Shown in pieces: positions 3,679 through 30,300 of a stretch of 64,000 nt of DNA. Below the pieces are notes generated by a model. It saw nothing but the letters and a program-made list of their open reading frames with translations, was not told the DNA's origin and ran no database searches. This DNA comes from Trachythela sp. YZ-2020. Its lineage: Eukaryota > Cnidaria > Anthozoa > Malacalcyonacea > Clavulariidae. Positions within the stretch are counted from its first letter, which is position 1. Every line of letters starts with the position of its first letter. A program made the position numbers and the translations under genes. The stretch covers positions 6,962,001-7,026,000 of the forward strand of contig JADLSH010000369.1 in assembly GCA_016169945.1 (NCBI GenBank), given 5' to 3'.

Positions 3679-5688
3679 ATGCAAAATATACAAACATTTC
3701 TCGAAGAAACACAGGTAAGTATGGCTTTATTTCTTTCTGCCGATATTCATCAAGATGATGAACTGTTTAGTGTTAATTCTAGAGGAAAGCAATGTGCTTT
3801 TATGAGTTTATCGGCGCTTCTTTCAGCACGAAATATTCCATTGGCCGCGTGGTCGAAAACAACATTTAATAATGTCTTAATACAAGGAGACAAAATGTAT
3901 TTAAAAGCTTTGAGTAATGGCTTATTAGTGCTAGACCCTGGTGTAGAATATTTGTGTATAGATAACTTACCAACAATTGTTAGTGTTAATTCATGTACGA
4001 TGACAAATAATATTAATCTACCTGTGGAGGTAGCACAAAATATCAATCTACCCGTGGAGGTAGCACAAAATAACAATCTACCCGTGGAGGTAGCACAAAA
4101 TATCAATCTACCCGTGGAGGTAGCACAAAATATCAATCTACCCGTCGAGGTAGCACGAAATATCAATCTACCCGTGGAGGTAGCACAAAATAACAATCTA
4201 CCCGTGGAGGTAGCACAAAATATCAATCTACCTGTGGAGGTAGAGCCCATTGAGGCACAAAATAACATTGATCTACCCATTGTGGTAGGAGCACAAAATG
4301 CCGAAAATGTAAACCAAATTTGGTTTATGACTTATGGAAAAGAGCTTCAAGGGCTTGTTATAACTGACCAGGAAATTGAGTCTCACTACTATGATATTCA
4401 TACAGCACTTTTGAATATTTTTTTGAATGACAGTTATGCTATTTTAATATTAGAAGGCTATATGATGGCTTTAATAAAGCAAATGGATTCTTTCTATCTA
4501 TTTGACTCACATGCCAGAGACTTCACTGGCAGGCCTGATCCTAATGGCACTGCTGTTGTCATGAAGTTTACTAATATTCTAGAGTTGGAGCAATATTTGT
4601 ATTCTCTGTCAATAGAACTACATACCAACTTTTTTGAAATTGTACCTGTGCAATTAAATAAATATATAGCTTCCAAAAGCAAAGCCAAATGTTCCGAAGA
4701 TAGAGAATATCAGAAAAAGAGGCGTTCAGTAGAAACAGCAAGGGAAAAGCAAGCTAGGCTTGATTATAAAATGAGAAAGCAGTCAGAGGAAACTGACAGT
4801 GAAACAAAAATCAGACTTCAAAAACAAAGTGAGTCTATAAAACGAAAACGGTCAGAAGAAACTGACAATGTGACACAAATTAGACTTGAGAAAGATAGAC
4901 TTTATCAAAAACAAAAGCGGGCCAAAAGAAGGTCACAAACTCATCAGGAAATAAGCCAACAGGATTATTTAAATATGTTTGACATCACCAATAATGGTGT
5001 TATTGAAGAGCAATGTTGGGCAAAAGGTAACATTAATAAATTTCATAAATCTATGCAATATATTGTCAGTAAGTGTACTGTTTGTCAGGAGGCATGGCCC
5101 TTGAAATCTAAACCAAGGTCACCGTATGTGTGTTTACGATGCTCTAGAGATAAAAAATCTCCAAAAAAATTTTCGTGTGAAAATTCAATGATACCTTCAT
5201 CTGTTCCACTCGAGTTGCAAAATTTGACTCAGATTGAGGAAATGTTAATTGCTCGTGCTTTGCCAATCATGAGAGTTTATATTAAACCTGGCGGTCAGCG
5301 AGGTTATTCAGGGCATTGTATTAACTTACCACAAAATGTAACAGAACTTGCAACATCTTTGCCAAGATATCCTAAAGACTTGGCTGTGATTATTGTCAAA
5401 GTTAAAGGTAAAGACAACACATTTAGAGATGTGACATTGCGAAAACAAAATGTGCACAATGCCTTAATGTGGCTTATAAACCATAATCCACATTATTCTC
5501 AATTAACAATTAATGAAGATGCATTGAATTCATTACCTGAAAATGGTGTTCCATCAGATCTGATGACTGTTGAGACTGATAATGATATAGTCTCAGATGA
5601 TAATTGTTCTCCTGATTTGGGTCCTCCTACTGATAACCCCTCAGAGGATATTGTTTATAATGACTCTACTGAAATGAGTAGTTTTTAG
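3679..5688 (+). CDS. Helitron N-terminal protein: cysteine-protease-like domain plus Cys-cluster domain
   Basis: 669 codons. Residues near 30-50 carry [12 protein letters not shown] with Cys39, and near residue 275 there is [17 protein letters not shown] with Asp276 and His278. This Cys ... Asp-x-His layout is like herpesvirus-tegument-type (peptidase C76-like) cysteine proteases, which accompany some animal Helitrons. Between them sits an in-frame array of a 10-residue repeat ([10 protein letters not shown]). A highly charged stretch (about 340-430) precedes a cysteine cluster (CTVCQ ... CLRC) of the type found ahead of Helitron Rep domains. The stop falls inside a motif (STEMSSF) that seems to continue at 7198, so this ORF was probably fused to the Rep-helicase before an insertion separated them. 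The protease assignment rests on motifs only. Confidence 0.7.
4009..4248 (+). repeat. In-frame 30-bp minisatellite, 8 units
   Basis: Eight consecutive 30-bp units encode [10 protein letters not shown] with minor changes (NNN, VAR). The period is a multiple of three and there are no stops, so the repeat has expanded without breaking the protein. It lies between the two halves of the putative protease active site. Confidence 0.9.
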
Positions 5689-7161
5689 TGCAAAGTTTTT
5701 AACTTTGCAGTATTGTGATGAGGGGCGAAAATTCACACGAGATATCATAGTGTAAACTTTCCGGGGGGTGTTTGCGAAGATTCTCTATTAATACCGTATC
5801 TGTTAAACTTTGGGGTTGAAACTTTTTTAAGCACTTTCAAGTTATCTTATAGCTCAATTCGGTTGTATTCATGCAGTGTTTAATTAGATTTACGAACAAC
5901 ATTTGTGGTATTAAACGTCTACATCATAACAATCGTTTTATATATAATATTGGGTTGCTAAATCCCCCGGTAGCTATGAACACGTGCGTTCAAGTCCACT
6001 GATCTAATAATATCACGAAATTTCGAAATATTTACCGCACAATGGTGATAGCTGGGAGTGGGAATGTGATGGAAATACAATCAAATTTATAAATAAACGT
6101 TTTCATTTTGGCCTTTTGGATTAGTAGTGCGTTTTGTCATTTATATATTCAATAGACAATACTGAATGGGTCGAATATTCATTATTGCATAATTCCGAAG
6201 CGTAAGTTGCGCCTCAAACATGTCACATATTTTGGACTTGGTAGTTGGTGGCTTGGTGCTGGTTATATATAAAAAAATTCAAATACAAGATTCAAGACCC
6301 GATGAGATCCCTTTGGCCTTACCGTAAATATCGAATATGTTAGTTATAGTAAACAGCATTGGATTTTACCAGCGATCTAAGGTAAGTCGACTTGCGTACA
6401 ATTTATACACATTAATACGGCTACTGTATTGTTTCTGGCGAATTTTATAGATAGTAGAAGTTGCTATACTCCCGGTATACTCTGTCCGTAGACTCGTAGA
6501 GTGTAATTTGTAGAGTAGTAGAGTGTAGTATGAACTGCATAAGTTTGAAATTTGAAATTTGTTATGCAATATTAATAGAACACATCTCTGTTGACGGGGC
6601 AGTTGTTTACAAATGCGAATGGCATTTTGGTGAGGATGCGTCTATATATATAACTATGATGTATGATGCATTCTATATACTTTCTAGTTTTGCTTAGCCT
6701 TTATTTTAGTAGTCTGTGTACAACCGTACTCTCGAAATTTTATATACACGATGAAATAATAAATAAATAAAATTTGAAATAATCGAAGTTGAGTTGACAT
6801 ATTTGTAATTAGTTGAATAAAACTAATCAAATATTGCAACCCTAAACAAAAGACAATTTTATCTGCTTACTATTATATATTGGCAAAAACATAAATCACT
6901 CATCACGAATTTAGAATTACGAATGATGAAATATTACAAGCTTTTCATTGACAAGTGTACTTGTTGAAAAACTGGCATGCTAGCTTTTCAAAAGCTTGTC
7001 ACATTTCATCAATTTTCAAGGGCAAATAAAAATAGTAAAGGTAAAAATAATTGCCAAATAAAAATTGCTCGTGCAAATACGTAATATGCAAATATCAACA
7101 CAACACAACATGGATGCACAACAATTACGTACGCACTATAAACCATGTAACAACATAGCAT
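5689..7161. other. Probable insertion separating the two Helitron coding blocks
   Basis: No gene is seen. The upstream protein ends at ATGAGTAGTTTT and the downstream homology resumes at ACTAGTTTACCTGTTGG (about 7193), so both sides share AGTTT. This is what an insertion with a short target duplication would leave. The inner ends also share an inverted TAGTGCAAA / TTTGCACTA pair (near 5687 and 7165). The inserted family is not recognised. Confidence 0.45.
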
Positions 7162-10100
7162 TTGTCTTTTAAAATTTTGCACTATCCTTGGATCACTAGT
7201 TTACCTGTTGGTGAACAACAAAAACAGGAAATTGAAGCTATTAGAAATCAGCTTTCTGAAAATGAGCCAATGCAATGGCCCTCAGTTCAAAATGAACCAT
7301 TAAATGAGTATCAGATATCACATCTGGCCACAATGGCTTTCCCTACGTTATTTCCAGATGGAAAAGGTGATCCTACTAATCAAGGACTTCTACGTGATGT
7401 CCCTCTTCAGGAACGAATAAAGCATCTTTTAAAATTTGCTGAAATTATTGATGGTAAATGGATCTACCGTTTTGCCAACCATCCCAGATTTTCTTACTGG
7501 GCTTTTAATATGATTCAAAGAAAACGAATCTTACAGCAAAGTGGAATATTCCTTAGACAAAACCCAGGTGAAGCACATCTCACCATTGATGAACTGCGAG
7601 AAATGGCTGCCAGTAACAATGCTAATCTATTTATGTCTAAGGTGTCTAGATATGTCGGCAATATTGCTGGTACTAATGCTTACTGGAATAGAGTAAGAGA
7701 GGAACTCAAGGCTATAGTAACTAGTGTTGGAGCACCAACATTATTTTTTACTTTTTCCTCTGCAGATATGCATTGGCCTGAATTACATGCTTTATTTAAA
7801 GCTGGTACTGATGGAGAAACTGGTAATTCTACCAGTGATGTAAGACGACAAAATGTTATTAACAGTCCCCATATTGTAGATTGGTTTTTACCCAAAGATT
7901 GGAAAGCTTTGTAAAACACTGGCTATATGAAACACTTGGTGCAAAATGGCACTGGTTTAGATATGAATACCAAGGTAGAGGTAGTATCCATTGTCATGGC
8001 ACTGCTAAACTAAACAATGACCCAGGTTTGTGTCAACTAACTCAGACTGCTTTGAAAGGTTTCCTAGCTCAAAAATTTAAAGATGAGAATGATTTTTCTG
8101 ATACAACAGAACTAGACGATGATATTGAAGCTGGCCAGAAAGCTGCTGAAACAGTATGTCAGTATGTTGATTGGCTATTATCAACTGTCAATCCAAATCC
8201 ACCAGATGAGGACATGTGGATAAGACCTGAAACTCATCCATGTCAAAGAAGTCATAGTGACATTCCTGAACATGCATATGAGAAACAATCAGATTATATA
8301 GATCTGTTAAATATGGTTCAACGACACACTCGTTGTAGTACAAGCTATTGTCTTAGAAAAAAATCAAATGAAACAGAGTTGAAATGTAGATTTCATTTCC
8401 CTTTTGATCATTGTCCTCAGACAAAATTAGAATTTGAAAAAATTCACACTTCAGGTGATAATGAACATTATAGAGCTAAAATTGTGACTAAACGAAATGA
8501 TTCTAGGTTAAATAACCACCAACATCTTCAAATCCAAGGATGGAGAGCTAACTGTGATATTCAAGTTTGTTATTGATCACTACGCTTGTGTTGAATATCT
8601 CACAAAATATGCAGCTAAAGGTGAACCAAGGTCACCTATGTTAACACAGGCATTTAACTCTATTGTGCAAAATGTTGACAGTAATACTGACCCTCGCAGA
8701 GCTATTAAGAAAGTAGTTATGAAATCTCTTGGCGAAAGAGATTATGCAGCTCAAGAGACAATGCATCATTTGTTGTCTTTGAAACTCCATAGCTCATCAT
8801 TTAAAGTGATGCCAGTAAGTCTAAATGGTTCACGTAGAGTACGGGATACAACATGTATTGAAGACGGTGAATCATGCACCGATTACTCGCTTCTTGATGT
8901 GTATGCTAATCGTGAGCAATATGACAATTCACATGATATAATGAACATGAACTTTGTTCAGTTTGCTACAACATACAAAGTTGTTAACAATGAACTGACA
9001 AAATTGCCAGAGAATATTATACCAAGAATATTCCCAACATATTCTCCTAATCACAAAGGTCCAAATTTTGGCCTATATTGTAAATATCAACTTTTAAGGT
9101 ATAAACCCTGGAGAACAACCCAAAACAATGCATGGGGTGACCAAGAACCTACTGACGAAATCCTAATTAATTCTTGGCAAGAATTCTTGCAAACACCTTA
9201 CGGACAATCTAATGTCCCAGACTGGTTTGACAAATTACAAGCTGTCATTCAGAGTCAAGAACCAGAAGATGAACCTTCTGAAGAACAGGAGAGAACTCGA
9301 GAAGAGTGGATGATATTGTCAGACCTCCACACTCCATTTGACAACTCTGAGCAAACGCCAGAGTCAACTCATGACTGGCATCTTGACAGAACCAGTTATT
9401 CAGAACAACAAATCCATGAAATGCCCACATGGATAAAAACAAACAAAGAAGAATACACTATTCATGAGCAATATGACATTGTTGATGTCAACAGTTTTAG
9501 TGAAATGCAAAAACTTGCTTATGACATTGTTAAATCTCATTTTGAGGATATATCGACAGAGAGAGACCCATTATGTCTAATTATAAATGGTGTTGCAGGA
9601 ACTGGTAAAAGTTACCTTATTAATGCTATCAGAAACCTTTTACAAAGTAAATGTGCTGTTACTGCTACTACAGGTAAAGCAGCTTATAACATTAGAGGTG
9701 TAACTGTGCATTCTCTATTAAAGTTACCTATAGGATCAAGAGGTAATAAAGACCTGACAGGACAAAGTTTGTGTAGATTACAAGAGAGTCTTAATGACAT
9801 TGACTACATCATCATTGATGAATACTCCATGCTTGGCCAAGTTAACTTTGGTTGGATAGACAAGCGTTGCAAACAAGCAACTGGTTGTAATGACAGAGTA
9901 TTTGGAGGAAAATCTCTGATTTTAACTGGTGATCCAGGTCAATTACCACCTGTAGCAGACAAGCCTCTTTACCATGCTAAACCATCAAACGCTGTTGGTG
10001 AACAAGGTTATCAAGCATATCGTATGTTTGACAAAGTTGTTAAACTCACTGTAAATCAACGAGTGCAAGGTATGACATCTGAACAAGTCAATTTCAGAAA

Positions 10101-10895
10101 CTTATTATTGCGACTTCGAAAGGTGACTCAACAGTCAATGACTGGGAATTACTTCTGACACGTCAACCATCCAATGTCATTAACTTATGTGACTTTGAAG
10201 ATTCTACTAGACTGTTTTATAGTAATGAACAAGTCGCTAATTACAACCATGAACAGCTAATGAAACTCGAGCATCCAATTGCTCATATTAATGCTCGCCA
10301 TTCATCTGCATTGGCCAAAAAGATATCCTCAGATGATATGTCTGGCTTAGAACCTGTTGTGTTTCTAGCAAAAGGTGCTAGAGTCCTGTTAACCATGAAT
10401 TTGTGGTCAAGTGTTGGCCTTTGTAATGGGGCTACTGGAACAGTTGTTGATATCATCTATCAGAACAATCATCAACCACCTGACTTACCTATTGGGGTAA
10501 TAGTAGAATTTGAGAACTATAGAGGTCCTGTATTTAATGAAAACCAACCATTGTACATTCCAATATGTCCAATCACTGTCTCGTCACAGACAGAAATAGG
10601 TTTCCATGAAAGACAACAGTTACCTTTAAGGCTTGCTTGGGCTCTTACAATACACAAGAGCCAGGGACTCACACTTCCAAAAGCATGGATTGATATTGGA
10701 AAATCTGAAAGAACCGCAGGAGTATCCTATGTTGCTATTAGCAGGGCAAAAACACTTGCATCTTGTGTCATAGAACCTATGACATATGAACGATTAACAA
10801 GCTTGAAATCATCAGCTAATTTACATTATAGGCTTGAAGAAGAAAACAGGCTAGATCAGTTAGCACAGACTACAAACAGCAGTGCATTTAGATAA
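7162..10895 (+). pseudogene. Helitron Rep-helicase, frameshifted
   Basis: Rolling-circle replication initiator fused to a PIF1-family helicase. The Helitron-like N-terminal domain is at 7162-7914 (SDxHWPELH near 7770). The HUH motif GSIHCHG is at 7980-8000 with His codons at 7989 and 7995. The two catalytic tyrosines are in YLTKYAAK (8596 and 8608). The helicase has Walker A GVAGTGKS (about 9590), Walker B IIDEYSM, GDPGQLPPV, and the C-terminal motif HKSQGLTL ... GVSYVAISRA (10645-10750). The frame changes at about 7905, 8570 and 10122, so no single protein can be made. All hallmark residues are still present, which points to fairly recent decay or to assembly errors. Confidence 0.9.
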
Positions 10896-18300: not shown

Positions 18301-21300
18301 AGACGTCTATTAACACCCACATTCCATGATATCGTTTACAATAGAACTGATTGATATCACTTTATATAATTGTGCCAGGAAACAGACCGACCTTATCTAA
18401 GACTAAAACCACTGGACCTCTTGTAACACCAGCTGCGTTGTCATCTCTAAAACCAAAACCAAAAATATATGGTGAAATATATGCACACCTACAACGGCAA
18501 TCACTTGGCAAACACTGCAATTGTATTTGAAAAGTAACGTTAAGTTAAAGGTGATGTAAAGTCCCGATGTGAACAAACCGGCAGCGTCCGTTTTTTTACA
18601 TTTTCAACAAGCTATATTTAAAAAAATATGATGTGTTCTGGTTCGCTATGCTTTAAATAAATACAGATTCGAATTTCTGATTTAGAAGATGTCGAATTTT
18701 TGTCGAAACAACGCGAAATTTGGGCATTGTTTACATCGCGGGACCCCCCATAGCACATGCGCAGAATGGACTTTACATGGTCTTTAAGTATCATCGACTA
18801 ATGCAGTTGAAAAAAATTACAGTCGAGGAGTGAGAGCCAGAAAAATCTGAACCCCTGTACAAGATAAGGCTAGATCCGACCCTGGTTCTGGCTTCTAACA
18901 ATCGAAAGAAAATTACAATACCTTTCATTGTCGTCAAGGAAATTTGATAACGCCTTGGAGAACTAGAAAATATAGAAATGTATCCCTGAAAACCACTCGT
19001 GAATTTGTTGAGTTGCAGTAAAATATGATTGACTTCGAATTACCTAATATATTTGTTGGATTGTATGAAACAATCATACACAATATGCCCTTGTAATATG
19101 CAATAATAAGTCAAAACAATGAGTGACTGGATGGAATATTGAATAGTGAGTTTCAAAACAATGAAAAGACAATGAAACATTCCTCTTTGACTATTATTAT
19201 GCAAGGATATTATGCGAAGAACCCATGCATTGGTGTGACCAAGAAATACATTACAACCTGCTTGTAGTCATACATGAATTACTCACTTTAATAAGTTGTT
19301 TACAGTTTTGTTGCATTCCTGTGAGATCTGCCAAGGCTTTCATCACCTCATTTAGTTGAAGATGAGAGAAGCTGTCTGTAAAAATCTGAAAATAAATCTG
19401 TTATTCAGATGACTTTGCGAGTGATGTGCGTTTTAGATTGTAAAAAATGGTTTCGATAAACCTCCATGATTTGTGTCCGAAATGATTAAAAACATTTAGA
19501 CTTTTCGAGCGAAGGTCCTTCGTCACGAGGTAAATCAGCTAAAATATCAGTTATGATATTACTTTCCTAATCTTCCATTGTTTTGCATGTTTTAAATGGG
19601 TAAATCAAATCGGACGGGATCTTTTAGCTGAGTGATACTCCATTCAACTGAAAATGTTAACAAAAAGTATAGCTATAGGAAGTCTAGAGTAGCTATAGGT
19701 AGGTATAGAGTAGCTATAGGTAGGTATAGAGTAGCTATAGGTAGGTATAGTATTCTACAATAAACTGTCGTGGTTTTGGTTAGAACTACCTGAAAAAAGA
19801 CATTCGACGTTTCGAGTTGAAGTAAGAGACTATAACTTCCAGACGAACGGCTTTTACTGAAAACGTCAAAGTTTCCGTGAAGGTTGTTCGGACTAAAACT
19901 GACTCTTTGTCTATTCCATACCTGCAGTAACTGTTCGTTCTGTATTCGTCTTCCCAATATCTTGATTGCCATTTGTTGAATCTCCTCTACATAGGAGTGC
20001 AGTCTAGAACGGTCTACCTCGTCCAGACGTCGTCCATTGAGAATACCGCGCCATCTTCCAAACCAAGTCTCCTCCATTCTCTGTACAAACCTCTAGAAAT
20101 AATAGCAGGAAACATGGCTGAACGAATAAAGGAAGAAATATGGTAGTAGAAGGTATTCTCCTAGTGGGTAATAATTATATTCTCCTAGTAGAAATATGAC
20201 TAAAAGGAAAAACTTTAACCAGTCTTAAGTTATCGAACACACATTGTATATAGGCCAGTTTCAACTAATAATAATAATAATAATAATGCAAACTTTAATA
20301 ATAATAATAATGAATTTATTGAAGCATATCCACAGTGTAGCTCTACATCTTCAATAGTTTATATAAAAAGTAAATTATTATAGTTATTAATCATTAGATA
20401 ATAAAATAGGTTAAAATATTTATATATATATATATATTATGTTAACAAAAAGTATAGCTATAGGAAGTCTAGAGTAGCTATAGGTAGGTATAGAGTAGCT
20501 ATAGGTAGGTATAGAGTAGCTATAGGTAGGTATAGTATTCTACAATAAACTGTCGTGGTTTTGGTTAGAACTACCTGAAAAAAGACATTCGACGTTTCGA
20601 GTTGAAGTAAGAGACTATAACTTCCAGACGAACGGCTTTTACTGAAAACGTCAAAGTTTCCGTGACTGCACTGACGAGCAGTTTCCTGCACTGACGAGCC
20701 GTTGAACGGCGAAACATGCATGTCTGCAGATTTGACTATATATGCTCCTTCGCTTGTGTTGTTGAGCACTCTGTGAGGTTAATTGGTGGCTATAAGCTAT
20801 AATGCAAAAGCTCACTTCCCTTGTGGTCGTTTGAGCACTCTGGCCCCAAGACACTTCACGCATGTCTGGATGCGCATGTGTCTGAGTATTGTACCACATG
20901 CGCTTGGTGAGGGCAAGAGTATGGTGTATATATACGAAGTCACTCGCATCTAGACTGCATTACAAGCTGCACTGACGAGCCGTTGAACGGCGAAACATGC
21001 ATGTCTGCAGATTTGACTATATATGCTCCTTCGCTTGTGTTGTTGAGCACTCTGTGAGGTTAATTGGTGGCTATAAGCTATAATGCAAAGCTCCGACTTC
21101 CCTTGTGGTCGTTTGAGCACTCTGGCCCCAAGACACTTCACGCATGTCTGGATGCGCATGTGTCTGAGTATTGTACCACATGCGCTTGGTGAGGGCAAGA
21201 GTATGGTGTATATATACGAAGTCACTCGCATCTAGACTGCGTTACAAGCTGCACTGACGAGCCGTTGAACGGCGAAACATGCATGTCTGCAGATTTGACT

Positions 21301-24300
21301 ATATATGCTCCTTCGCTTGTGTTGTTGAGCACTCTGTGAGGTTAATTGGTGGCTATAAGCTATAATGCAAAAGCTCACTTCCCTTGTGGTCGTTTGAGCA
21401 CTCTGGCCCCAAGACACTTCACGCATGTCTGGATGCGCATGTGTCTGAGTATTGTACCACATGCGCTTGGTGAGGGCAAGAGTATGGTGTATATATACGA
21501 AGTCACTCGCATCTAGACTGCGTTACAAGCTGCACTGACGAGCCGTTGAACGGCGAAACATGCATGTCTGCAGATTTGACTATATATGCTCCTTCGCTTG
21601 TGTTGTTGAGCACTCTGTGAGGTTAATTGGTGGCTATAAGCTATAATGCAAAAGCTCACTTCCCTTGTGGTCGTTTGAGCACTCTGGCCCCAAGACACTT
21701 CACGCATGTCTGGATGCGCATGTGTCTGAGTATTGTACCACATGCGCTTGGTGAGGGCAAGAGTATGGTGTATATATACGAAGTCACTCGCATCTAGACT
21801 GCGTTACAAGCTGCACTGACGAGCCGTTGAACGGCGAAACATGCATGTCTGCAGATTTGACTATATATGCTCCTTCGCTTGTGTTGTTGAGCACTCTGTG
21901 AGGTTAATTGGTGGCTATAAGCTATAATGCAAAAGCTCACTTCCCTTGTGGTCGTTTGAGCACTCTGGCCCCAAGACACTTCACGCATGTCTGGATGCGC
22001 ATGTGTCTGAGTATTGTACCACATGCGCTTGGTGAGGGCAAGAGTATGGTGTATATATACGAAGTCACTCGCATCTAGACTGCGTTACAAGCTGCACTGA
22101 CGAGCCGTTGAACGGCGAAACATGCATGTCTGCAGATTTGACTATATATGCTCCTTCGCTTGTGTTGTTGAGCACTCTGTGAGGTTAATTGGTGGCTATA
22201 AGCTATAATGCAAAAGCTCACTTCCCTTGTGGTCGTTTGAGCACTCTGGCCCCAAGACACTTCACGCATGTCTGGATGCGCATGTGTCTGAGTGTACCAC
22301 ATGCGCTTGGTGAGGGCAAGAGTATGGTGTATATATACGAAGTCACTCGCATCTAGACTGCGTTACAAGCTGCACTGACGAGCCGTTGAACGGCGAAACA
22401 TGCATGTCTGCAGATTTGACTATATATGCTCCTTCGCTTGTGTTGTTGAGCACTCTGTGAGGTTAATTGGTGGCTATAAGCTATAATGCAAAAGCTCACT
22501 TCCCTTGTGGTCGTTTGAGCACTCTGGCCCCAAGACACTTCACGCATGTCTGGATGCGCATGTGTCTGAGTATTGTACCACATGCGCTTGGTGAGGGCAA
22601 GAGTATGGTGTATATATACGAAGTCACTCGCATCTAGACTGCGTTACAAGCTGCACTGACGAGCCGTTGAACGGCGAAACATGCATGTCTGCAGATTTGA
22701 CTATATATATATATATATATATATTAATAAGGTTCGGAGTCTTTAAATTCTTGGTTGATTCATTTATTACTCTACAATATTGTTTCGTGAGGTTCAAAGA
22801 CCTCACTCGTCAGGAGTGATTACTGAATCACTCACTTCAGTAATCACTCCTGACGAGTGAGGTCTTTGAACCTCACGAAACAATATTGTAGAGTAATAAA
22901 TGAATCAACCAAGAATTTAAAGACTCCGAACCTTATTAATATCACCGCTCTACAATAGTATTGAGCACTGTCTGATAGAAATTATCGAAGTACTAATTTA
23001 TTTATATATATATATATATTTATTATTTATTTAAAATAATTCATGGCTTCTGATTGGCTAATAGCCATGTGTGAAATCGTCATGTCCAACTAGTGACGTC
23101 ATAACGTGGGATACGACTTAAAAAGTCGTATCTCACGTTATGACGTCATGCCAATGATGACGACATCAACTTCCGAAGGAGCGGGAATGTGAAACAAAAC
23201 AAATGGCTTCCTCAAGGGAAAGGTTCGCCAACCTTGAGGAAGCTGAAATTCAAAAACTACTTGAAGACAAAGATTCGCACAATACAAAAAGATCAACGAA
23301 AGCTTGTAGATGATTTTTGAAGATTATTTAAAAGCAAAGAATGTAAATTTCCCACAAAATAGCGAAGAACTTGCCGAGATTCGGTTTTCACATGATATAA
23401 CGACAAACTTCGGCTTGATAATTCTTTATATCATGCTCAACCTCATTCAATAATTGTTAAATATACAATGGATATTGCCTAAAAATTATATGAACCTAAT
23501 CATGAGAAGAGATGTAGGCGCTAAGCACTATTATGCAGTAGATGGTAGGCCCTTCCCGATTGTTCTAGTAAAAGTGGCACATTATGCACATAGCAATGCC
23601 TGTTTTTTCCCAAAATTATGCTCAAATTTATGCTCATTTTTCAAAATTATGCTCGTTTGGTTGAAAAAAATGCTTGGCTTTATACGTTATATTTGCATGA
23701 AGCTTTAGTTAACGAAAAGCACATGTTGTGCCATATGTTGATGTGTTTCTTACACATCAACATATGGCACAACATGTGCTTTTCGTTTACTAATGCTTCA
23801 TGCAAATATAACGTTAACTTTAAAATGTTAAATGTAAGTTATTTGGTGACGCCATCTTGTTTTTTTTTCAATTAGCCAGTGCTTCCACTTTCAGATTTGT
23901 ATTTCCGTATGACCGTATCGGATTATCAGATAATAAAATGAGTAAAACGTACCTTATTTTGGCTTTATGGGGAAATAAAAGATGAAATATAGTTTTCCTA
24001 AACTCACTAAAACTGCATGAACACCATAAATATGAAAAGTTTTGCTTTTTAACACCCAAAATTCAGATGAATTAGCGAAAAATTACTAAATTATGCTAGC
24101 AATTCTTTTCTTGAAAAAATGCAAAAAATATGCTCGAGAAGCTAAATTATGCTGAAAATTATGCTAGCACAATCGGGAAGGGCCTAGTAGATGGTGGTCA
24201 AGCGATAGTTATCCGGCAGAGTGAGGAACGGATTTAAATTATTTTCATCAATTATATTTAGTATAGTCTTGTACTTGGTTGCCAGGAAATAGAATTAAAG

Positions 24301-27300: not shown

Positions 27301-30300
27301 TTTGTAAATATGTATGTACTGGGCAAGTTGGATCAAGTTAACTTATCTCAGTAATGAAAATAAAAAAATTGGCGGGAATTTTGCAAGTAATTTCTCTATT
27401 TGGTTCAAAAATAGCACAGCTATGCAACACAATGGTTGCAATGCTTTATCAGCACTGATCTGGAAATAATACTGGATTGAGTATCTGTTCTGTTAAGAAT
27501 GAAGCCGGAAGTCAGCCATTACTAAGCAACCAACGGCATAACTTTCTACCGGATGTGAGAAATTCGATACTTGAGAATATTACATGGTTGCGCGGAAATA
27601 TGGAATTTATTTCGAGTGTTGAAGAGAATATTGCTCACGAGTGAGCGTAGGAACGAGTGAGCAATATTGTCTTCAACACGAGAAATAAATTCCATATTTC
27701 CAAACAACCATGTACTATTCTGTTTATTTTATAAACAAATTATAAACAAACGACAATTCATATAGAAACTCAAAACAAATATGTAAATAGTACACAAATA
27801 GTAATAGGTTTTTGATTGGCTCGTAAAAATGATATTTTCAAACGTAAATATTTTTTACGTGTGTTTAAATACGATTTTTCTCAGTGGCATAAGTGGCATC
27901 TCTATATAACACTTATGTTTATATAATATATTTAAGACAATAAATTTACCTCGAGTTGGTTGTCCATGTTCTGCCTTCTGCTCCACCATTCACGTTTACA
28001 CTTGATTTCAATACTTTCATTCAACTCTCGCATAATTGCAGCGAAATCACTGAGGGTATTTCTGCGGAATATTGATGAAAGGTCGCGAACCACGGAATCA
28101 CTAGTCTACAACACAATGTTGAGCTAGAGTAAATTATACTGCGGTATGCGTGACTTGTGAAGGTATACTTTTGGATTATTGAAAAGGCAGAAACATTTTA
28201 GTGACAGTTTGTGTGTACATGCATGCAGCAAACTCAATGTCACTTCTTAAAGCAGACAGTGGACCAAAAAAAAACGATGATACAAAATCTAGTACTGCGA
28301 AAAACATAATGGGCTTACATATAAATGTGTAATAGGGTCGTTGAAGATGCGTTGTGTAAAAATAGGACATATGAATGTCTATTGTGATTTCGCGCTTAGC
28401 ATGTAAAGGTTTGTGGTTTTGACATTGAGACAACATTTTAATTGAACTAGCTTTATATAGAGAACCAAGATGTGCAGTGTGTTGAAAACGTTACTGATTG
28501 TGCAAAGGTCAAAGCATAAACTATTCCACGAAGTGCGCCTTTATTTGTCAGTCAGTAACGGTCCCGTCAACAAAGTGTTTATTAATAAGCCTGATAGAGC
28601 GATACCTGAAATTCTTTCTCCATACAGTCACCTTCATCATCTTCATTTGGTAAGGTTAATTTTAAAACTAGAGATTCATTATTCTTCCTTAACCTCGACA
28701 TCACAAGATGTTTCACGTTCTCTCTGTCAGGTGCTTGCACAATCGACAATGTACATACAGTTAAATCTACAAACATCAAGTAGTTATCAATGTAGACATT
28801 TAGTACGGACTACAAAATATTGCCAAAATATTAAAATACAAATCAAATGACTTTTCAATCAACTGCTTCGCTTATTAATCAATTCCGGTTTACTGTACCC
28901 CTATACATATAGTATACTGAAAGCAATATTTTCCTCATGGCAACCTTAAATGAAAACTCAGCCTGCAGCTTTGCTCCGCAAAATCAGAATTTTCACCTTG
29001 GGCGTTAATTTACACCGTGATAAGTTACCTTCTGGCATTAAGTCAATGGTGTTTTTAAAACATTCCAGAACATCACCAGCAGATATCGTAAAACCAACTG
29101 TATTCTTGATGGTTTGCAATTGCAACATTTGATTGATACTCTTTCTCTCTTCGTTATCCAACGTTACTGATTCCAATAACTTCAGCAGTTCATCCTCATG
29201 ATTGGTCTATATGAGAATATAGAGAACACTGGATGAAGGAAAAAATATTCTTGCAAGGTTCTCCTGAAATTAGGAAAATTGGACAGTTTTCATTTCTTCC
29301 AGCAAGTTCCCCACTCAACTGGAAATAACTAATTCGTGACACATATGGAAAGATCAATGAAAAAGGAGAATAAATATATTTATTATATAAGTATATAGAG
29401 AGATTAGAGAGTATATATAAGTATGTAGAGATTTCCGTGCAGTATAGAAAGGTGAAATAAAAATCGTATCATCACGGCGGACTAGGTGAAATTTATCGTC
29501 TCTGCGGATTGGTCGGACGATTTTTGTCACATGCGTTTTGATTGGCTAGTGTTTTCGCGCTCAAAATTGTAAACATGGCGCCCGGTTTTAGCGAAAACAC
29601 TGGAGAGTTTTATTGCGTTTTTCGCTAAAAAAGCCACCATATTACCATCAAGGAAAACTTTCAAAGCTAAAAATACTTAAAATAAACCTCTTTGGTTGGA
29701 ATTTCAGCATGAAATCTGTTTTTGAGGTTAGATATACTTCGTTTGCGAGTTGCTCGCTGTGACTGTGAGTCTGTCAGTGTCACATATTTATCTCTAAAAT
29801 TATATTTTAAACAAATTACTTCATGGTTGGTTCGTTTCTATGATTATTTACTCGTTGTGAAGGATCACTAAACTCACTCGTTCGCTGGGCACACTCGTTC
29901 GTTTAAAGCGATCCTTCACAACTCATAAATACAAATCGTACGCACTCACCAACCATGAAGTAATCTATATATCAAGAAAAAAGAAAAATCAAAGACTTTG
30001 TCTTTACGTTTTTTAATTAATATTGTTTGTGTATTGCTCGTTTCCAGTTTAGCCGTGTGGGAGTTTACCGGAAATCAGCGGTGAAAAAGTATCGAAATCT
30101 AGTTCCCAGAAATATTTTTGGATCTGAACTTTTGCAGGAAAATTTTCACGGAAATTTCTAAAGTTAATAATTAACTGATGAGCAATAACAAAACTAGAGT
30201 ATGCCCTAGTCCAGACTAGTAATTGTAATGCATTTTGTATTCACTATATCAAATTGGACACCACTGAATATCAAGAAACAATACTCCAATCAGTCCAATG

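Follow-up and report, generated by a model that had tools for sequence, protein, structure and literature searches.

Here, we examined an array of hammerhead ribozymes in a 64,000-nt stretch of the genome of the anthozoan Trachythela sp. YZ-2020 (contig JADLSH010000369.1, positions 6,962,001 to 7,026,000, forward strand), which we refer to, as a whole, as the window. The array lies in an intron of a separase gene and belongs to a kind of element already known from the available sections of PMC7229834, the metazoan retrozyme that is not of the long terminal repeat (LTR) type. Our analysis makes it probable that the window array represents one insertion of such a non-LTR retrozyme, generated by target-primed rolling-circle copying, with a Penelope-like element as the likely source of the enzyme. 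As far as our searches show, three things are new, namely, the family itself, the junctions that speak for target-primed rolling-circle copying, and the candidate mobiliser; no published report of such junction patterns was found among the titles and abstract openings that these searches listed from the open-licence literature.

Tandem Repeats Finder places the array at 20686-22708 (period 281, 7.2 copies, 99% matches), that is, seven full units (281, 282, 281, 281, 281, 278, and 281 bp) followed by a 58-bp partial eighth, with unit position 1 set at CTGCACTGACG. A descriptor combining the hammerhead core with the three stems found 10 sites on the two strands of the window, 8 in the array and 2 in an adjoining palindrome, as opposed to 0 sites in 60 order-1 random windows. 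Thus, the eight hammerheads in ~281-bp tandem units described in an initial annotation of this DNA are borne out (8/8), whereas the start given there, 20666, has to be moved, because the first 20 bp are a truncated stub.

20686..22708, plus strand: retrozyme array, with its 3′ end at unit position 58
20686..20729, plus strand: first complete hammerhead (unit positions 1-44), predicted cut after 20724
20967, 21249, 21530, 21811, 22092, 22370, and 22651, plus strand: starts of the other seven hammerheads, predicted cut after the 39th base of each

All eight hammerheads are complete, identical across unit positions 1-58, and of type I with a short palindromic stem III, supporting the earlier assignment to the retrozyme kind. 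Each consists of stem I (CUGCA/UGCAG; 5 bp, a bulged A, and then 4 further possible pairs), the core CUGACGA, stem II (GCCGU-UGA-ACGGC), GAAA, a C at the cleavage site, and, as stem III, the 10-nt palindrome ACAUGCAUGU, which would permit a dimeric hammerhead, by analogy with that published for axolotl (available sections of PMC7229834). The units differ by three private events: unit 1 has one substitution, unit 2 a small complex change, and unit 6 a 3-bp deletion. Several features by which retrozymes are recognised are present: a hammerhead in every window unit (8/8), a unit of 281 bp, within the range of ~150-450 bp, a GC content below 50% (48.0%), and dispersed copies. Judging from the intact cores, RNA of the window array would cleave itself, and RNA circles presumably form.

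Dispersed copies had been anticipated in the initial annotation, and a search of the genome (578 Mb in 396 contigs) revealed many: the unit yielded 412 first-look candidates, of which the 40 best were scored, and the ribozyme pattern 3,517 matches, compared with 0 for a reversed control. We fetched 38 loci, plus 20 longer versions, and local alignment of 36 stretches (window included) resolved 43 segments of 0.2 to 23 units (L078 duplicates L077). The 3′ end of these segments is at unit position 58 in 35 cases, at 57 in one, at 53 in one, at 29 in two, and elsewhere in four; among the last, L062 is interrupted by ~370 bp, after which it resumes and ends at 58, and L076 (two segments) and L056 look rearranged. 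Short arrays of 1.25-1.9 units carry the same 3′ end, and the 5′ ends (40 determined) are scattered. On either side, the segments tend to meet TA repeats: among 32 segments with the standard end, (TA)4 or more occurs within 20 bp of the left end in 16 and of the right end in 26, as against 0.6% of window 20-mers. A target site duplication cannot be delimited within such a simple repeat. Some of the 5′ ends are grouped, with 12 of 39 falling within 29 nt (unit positions 97-125), a concentration reached by 1.3% of random sets and perhaps marking a pause or microhomology site (CTATAAGCTATAATG).

The 3′ junction holds in an unselected check as well, which covered the 3′ side of every listed pattern-match array on contigs C2-C8 (39 fragments). 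Three of the 39 run on into the unit, where the neighbouring ribozyme deviates from the pattern; the remaining 36/36 leave the unit at approximately position 50-58, and a TA run of 6 or more follows within 20 nt past position 58 at 33 of these 36 junctions (the exceptions are L133, L136, and L148; L134 and L138 have one common flank). Furthermore, the reverse-strand translation of the unit matches eight predicted proteins in ENA records, in two of which (P0121 and P0122) the same 3′ end is, judged by eye, directly bordered by an Ile-Tyr run, the translation expected of TA repeats; neither the end nor the target is therefore likely to be confined to this genome. Retrozymes often stand tail to tail across one short TA tract (L115, L118, L120, L139, L142, L060, and L068), which suggests repeated hits on one tract from both strands, and several lie next to or inside the TA centre of a palindromic repeat, the arms of which resemble GTTTTGAGGTAAGCGAAAA / TTTTCGCTTACCTCAAAAC (L057, L128, L146, L147, and L153; L048 is similar).

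The common 3′ end lies 19 nt past the predicted cut (39|40). The cut itself coincides with the 3′ end at 0 of the 36 unselected junctions and in 0 of the 43 segments, and 1 of 39 5′ ends falls within 3 nt of it. The common end could not arise from a cut linear monomer, and either a circle or an uncut multimer could have served as the template. The units within an array resemble each other closely. Across the 21 arrays that contain at least three full units (140 units in total, without L078), differences within arrays make up 7.0% of the variance at seven diagnostic sites and differences between arrays 93%, compared with 85% within arrays after permutation. Four variants are each private to one array among the 164 full units aligned (window included), where they occur in all or all but one of the units (L067, 4/4; L069, 4/5; L070, 7/8; L075, 15/15).

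Taken together, the fixed 3′ end, the scattered 5′ ends, the TA targets, and the largely uniform arrays argue that one circle was reverse-transcribed per array, rather than that arrays were homogenised at the DNA level. Of the two processes that had been offered for the near-identity of the units, amplification or homogenisation, the former is thus narrowed to reverse transcription, and the latter, in its DNA-level form, is disfavoured by ends, targets, and uniformity alike. An ordinary satellite, in which growth and homogenisation would proceed by unequal crossing-over or gene conversion and the hammerheads would be relics, could account for tandem, near-identical units and for variants shared by only some units, which occur in 9 of the 14 arrays that have at least four units and in some cases lie in adjacent units (L064, L068, and L074). 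Nevertheless, it is very improbable, being already disfavoured by the fixed end: it sits poorly with a single 3′ end at unlinked loci with differing flanks and TA targets, with the same end in arrays of fewer than two units, with intact cores, and with the window array, all three variants of which are singletons. Insertion by reverse transcription and later DNA-level exchange within arrays could well go together.

The window array looks like one young retrozyme insertion with an abnormal left end; the features at its two borders are listed here.

19654..19880, plus strand: X, source of a 227-bp duplication, within the next separase intron (19921-19386, 536 bp)
20421..20438, unstranded: TA tract to the left of X′ and the array, which together make up the insertion
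20439..20665, plus strand: X′, exact 227-bp copy of 19654-19880, filler between the TA tract and the array, joined to the array 5′ end
20666..20685, plus strand: 5′-junction stutter, a truncated hammerhead start plus AGTTTC
22702..22725, unstranded: TA tract where the array 3′ end meets a Penelope-like tail, overlapping the ends of both

The 5′ end of the array abuts not TA but X′, to which it is linked by the 20-bp stutter of CTGCACTGACGAGC and AGTTTC; it is X′ that starts at the TA tract. X and X′ form an exact direct duplication, one copy on each side of a separase exon. We read X′ and the stutter as probable traces of a template switch at the 5′ end of the insertion. The absence of any difference between X and X′ across 227 bp and the nearly unmutated array fit one recent event, in agreement with the recent origin proposed at the outset.

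At its 3′ end, the array is followed by another type of hammerhead-bearing sequence.

22721..22827, minus strand: Penelope-like tail (short end), forming the left arm of a perfect palindrome and carrying the second hammerhead type, the core of which starts at 22813
22836..22942, plus strand: right arm of the palindrome, a second copy of this tail, with its hammerhead core starting at 22850
22943..23003, plus strand: long-end extension of the right tail, followed by a TA tract to ~23020

The palindrome (22721-22942) has perfect 107-bp arms and a complete hammerhead with stems on each strand, and looks like a pair of Penelope-like tails facing outwards, as though priming had taken place on both target strands. 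In separase pre-mRNA, it would make a long hairpin with one sense hammerhead. Of 37 Penelope-like tails, 32 end in TA repeats, and five such tails adjoin a retrozyme. In the 0.2-3.1 kb fetched around such tails, two loci (L087 and L085) display the order coding sequence, stop, shared 3′ region, and Penelope-like tail, and a related protein, P0129 (model mean pLDDT 71), carries a reverse transcriptase and a GIY-YIG endonuclease. Because of the shared TA target, the neighbourhood, and the hammerhead near its end, we regard the Penelope-like element as the candidate mobiliser. In three loci (L106, L109, and L114), the long ends run into one common non-TA sequence (acctaacgctcctagcttgttgagcac), perhaps another tail form or a tandem copy.

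Several observations weigh against this account. In the Rfam search that the initial annotation had proposed, the window array gives no match at gathering scores; by E-value, all hits are below threshold, namely, HH9 (29.4 vs 52, first copy only), RAGATH-1 (19.4-22.7 vs 56.3), and Hammerhead_3 (19.2-20.4 vs 48.5). For the isolated 54-nt motif, a non-hammerhead fold has the minimum energy (−15.0 vs −12.5 kcal/mol for the hammerhead), so that the monomer may cut poorly. Since the first 38 loci come from the 40 candidates (of 412) with the highest scores, they are biased towards young copies. With regard to the template, priming at the same site on an uncut RNA multimer would give the same 3′ end, and not all arrays are uniform: L059 (1836-4653, 9.9 units) is clearly mosaic, with 67A in 5 of 8 scorable units, three arrays (L077, L070, and L073) have one odd unit each, and the partly shared variants number 17 (L078, deletions, and sites in run-length or gap-prone stretches omitted), among them 34T (L063, 4 of 7 units) and 277T (L073, 5 of 7 units). 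None of these is predicted by a single circle, although template switching, uncut multimers, or later conversion would explain them. With regard to the mobiliser, the link is drawn from target, neighbourhood, and hammerhead position; 5 of the 37 Penelope-like tails lack a TA run, P0129 shares only 43-46% identity with the coding pieces that precede the tail in L085 and L087, the L087 frame has an internal deletion, no intact element came to light, and Pfam provides no supporting domain for the Penelope-like coding frame. Finally, beyond the core, the retrozyme and Penelope-like hammerheads are not significantly similar (48.5 vs a shuffle maximum of 56).

Two alternatives draw on these observations. 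In the first, the retrozyme is the same, but a linear, uncut multimer transcribed from an existing array would serve as the template, with internal priming at the TA site and no need for circles. The mosaic L059 and the 17 partly shared variants would follow directly, and, in the available sections of PMC11167929, the enzyme of a Penelope-like element from Anolis starts within its RNA, with ribozyme cutting dispensable in vitro. By contrast, the array-private variants would then require a one-unit bottleneck or an already uniform source array, and the scored core positions are unmutated in 162 of 164 full units, albeit in a set chosen for similarity; overall, we consider this scenario rather improbable. 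In the second, another retrotransposon, of the type of long interspersed nuclear elements (LINEs) and specific for TA repeats, moves the retrozyme, and the Penelope-like tails merely share a hot spot. TA tracts draw other insertions too, and the lack of significant similarity between the two hammerheads beyond the core points the same way; this alternative is credible but unlikely, given that a Penelope-like enzyme prefers AT-rich DNA, starts internally near a hammerhead, and uses both strands (available sections of PMC11167929), and that the Penelope-like tails here form outward-facing pairs.

Returning to the reading that we favour, copying of a circle by a Penelope-like enzyme, the cycle could run as follows. 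The array would be transcribed on the ribozyme strand, and the hammerheads, to judge from their intact cores, would cut the transcript to ~281-nt monomers, which a host RNA ligase would circularise, as in published relatives. An endonuclease would then nick a TA tract, the freed TA end of which may anneal to UAUAUAU at unit positions 52-58; of these, the fixed 3′ end, 19 nt beyond the cut and ligation junction, is what is observed. The reverse transcriptase would circle the template several times and stop at varying points, leaving the pattern that is seen, mostly one haplotype per array, a fixed 3′ end, and a scattered 5′ end. The 5′ end would be joined via microhomology or template switching, in the window with the copying of 227 bp of the neighbouring intron, plus the stutter. 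The likely enzyme would be that of the same-genome Penelope-like element, with its reverse transcriptase and GIY-YIG endonuclease. More tentatively, the retrozyme and the Penelope-like element could form a pair like a short interspersed nuclear element (SINE) and a LINE, in which the hammerhead would be the docking module common to both: the element protein might bind the ribozyme fold, start from a nicked TA primer at a fixed short distance 3′ of that fold on the ribozyme-made circle, and run round this circle, each genomic array being the written record of one RNA circle. The clues provided by the junction maps, that is, a start 19 nt past the cut, a TA target shared with one Penelope-like family, and arrays mostly of one haplotype, make the proposed succession of ribozyme, circle, and multi-round reverse transcription a testable scheme that would require a single enzyme, RNA circle, and target DNA.

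The gene that hosts the array has its catalytic motifs on the minus strand at 17.6-15.3 kb of the window. The closest separase is that of the octocoral Dendronephthya gigantea (63% identity across 35% of the joined query), followed by that of the sea anemone Nematostella (50% across 15%). By these matches, the host of the array would be an anthozoan and probably an octocoral.

27950..28105, minus strand: separase exon before the array intron (gene sense); the donor, CTCGAG/GTAAAT, follows 27950 and is the only end read, 28105 being the match start
19922..20092, minus strand: separase exon after the array intron (gene sense); splice sites TTTCTAG/AGG and CTGCAG/GTATGG

Nematostella residues 1689-1739 map to 28102-27950 and residues 1742-1772 to 20086-19994 (minus strand), and, since these residues are nearly consecutive, apparently no exon is missing between the two. 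The splice sites delimit an intron of 7.9 kb (27949-20093) that holds the array. Thus, the location in a separase intron stands, with the amendment that separase is on the minus strand and the ribozymes, on the plus strand, are antisense to it; therefore, separase pre-mRNA would not contain these ribozymes, and another transcript is needed. A host function, in which antisense ribozyme RNA or circles would regulate separase, might be suggested by an array within the intron, ~590 bp from the next acceptor, but is barely conceivable in view of the 3,517 genome-wide pattern matches, the antisense orientation, and the very young insertion, with X and X′ still identical. Elsewhere in the window, we observed a Helitron-like element (3679-10895; Helitron_like_N and PIF1 helicase domains in split frames), a DDE_3 transposase domain (1497-2594), and a second near-perfect hairpin (23684-23814) with 63-bp arms and sub-threshold microRNA matches.

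Among known systems, metazoan non-LTR retrozymes, as described in the available sections of PMC7229834, are the closest: they share the type I hammerhead with a short stem III, tandem units of ~300 bp (220-245 bp in the coral Acropora millepora), a GC content below 50%, units too short for a reverse transcriptase, dispersal in short to long arrays, and hosts that also have Penelope-like elements. In these retrozymes, target site duplications, when present, are longer than 4 bp, and the canonical contacts between loops 1 and 2 are present in some hammerheads and mostly absent in mussel. The family described here, known from DNA sequence alone, differs in its mapped fixed 3′ end past the cut, its TA targets, the largely single haplotype of each array, and a neighbouring Penelope-like element that shares this target, as well as in its stem I, which has one bulged A; canonical loop-loop contacts are not clearly seen. 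The Anolis Penelope-like element with a hammerhead, Poseidon PAc (available sections of PMC11167929), is similar in its internal start near the hammerhead, its AT-rich target, the cutting and extension of both target strands, and two alternative tail ends. However, Poseidon PAc is autonomous and lacks homology between its start site and its target, in contrast to the retrozyme here, which ends in TATATAT and has TA repeats as its target. Plant LTR retrozymes, according to the available sections of PMC7761336, are likewise non-autonomous, with a hammerhead-flanked unit and a circular RNA intermediate, which here is presumed, but have a type III hammerhead, LTRs, a primer binding site, and 4-bp target duplications. 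Finally, the hammerhead satellites of newt and axolotl (available sections of PMC7229834), likened by description rather than by sequence, have a similarly very short palindromic stem III, suggesting dimeric action, and differ in their 330-350-bp units and vertebrate hosts.

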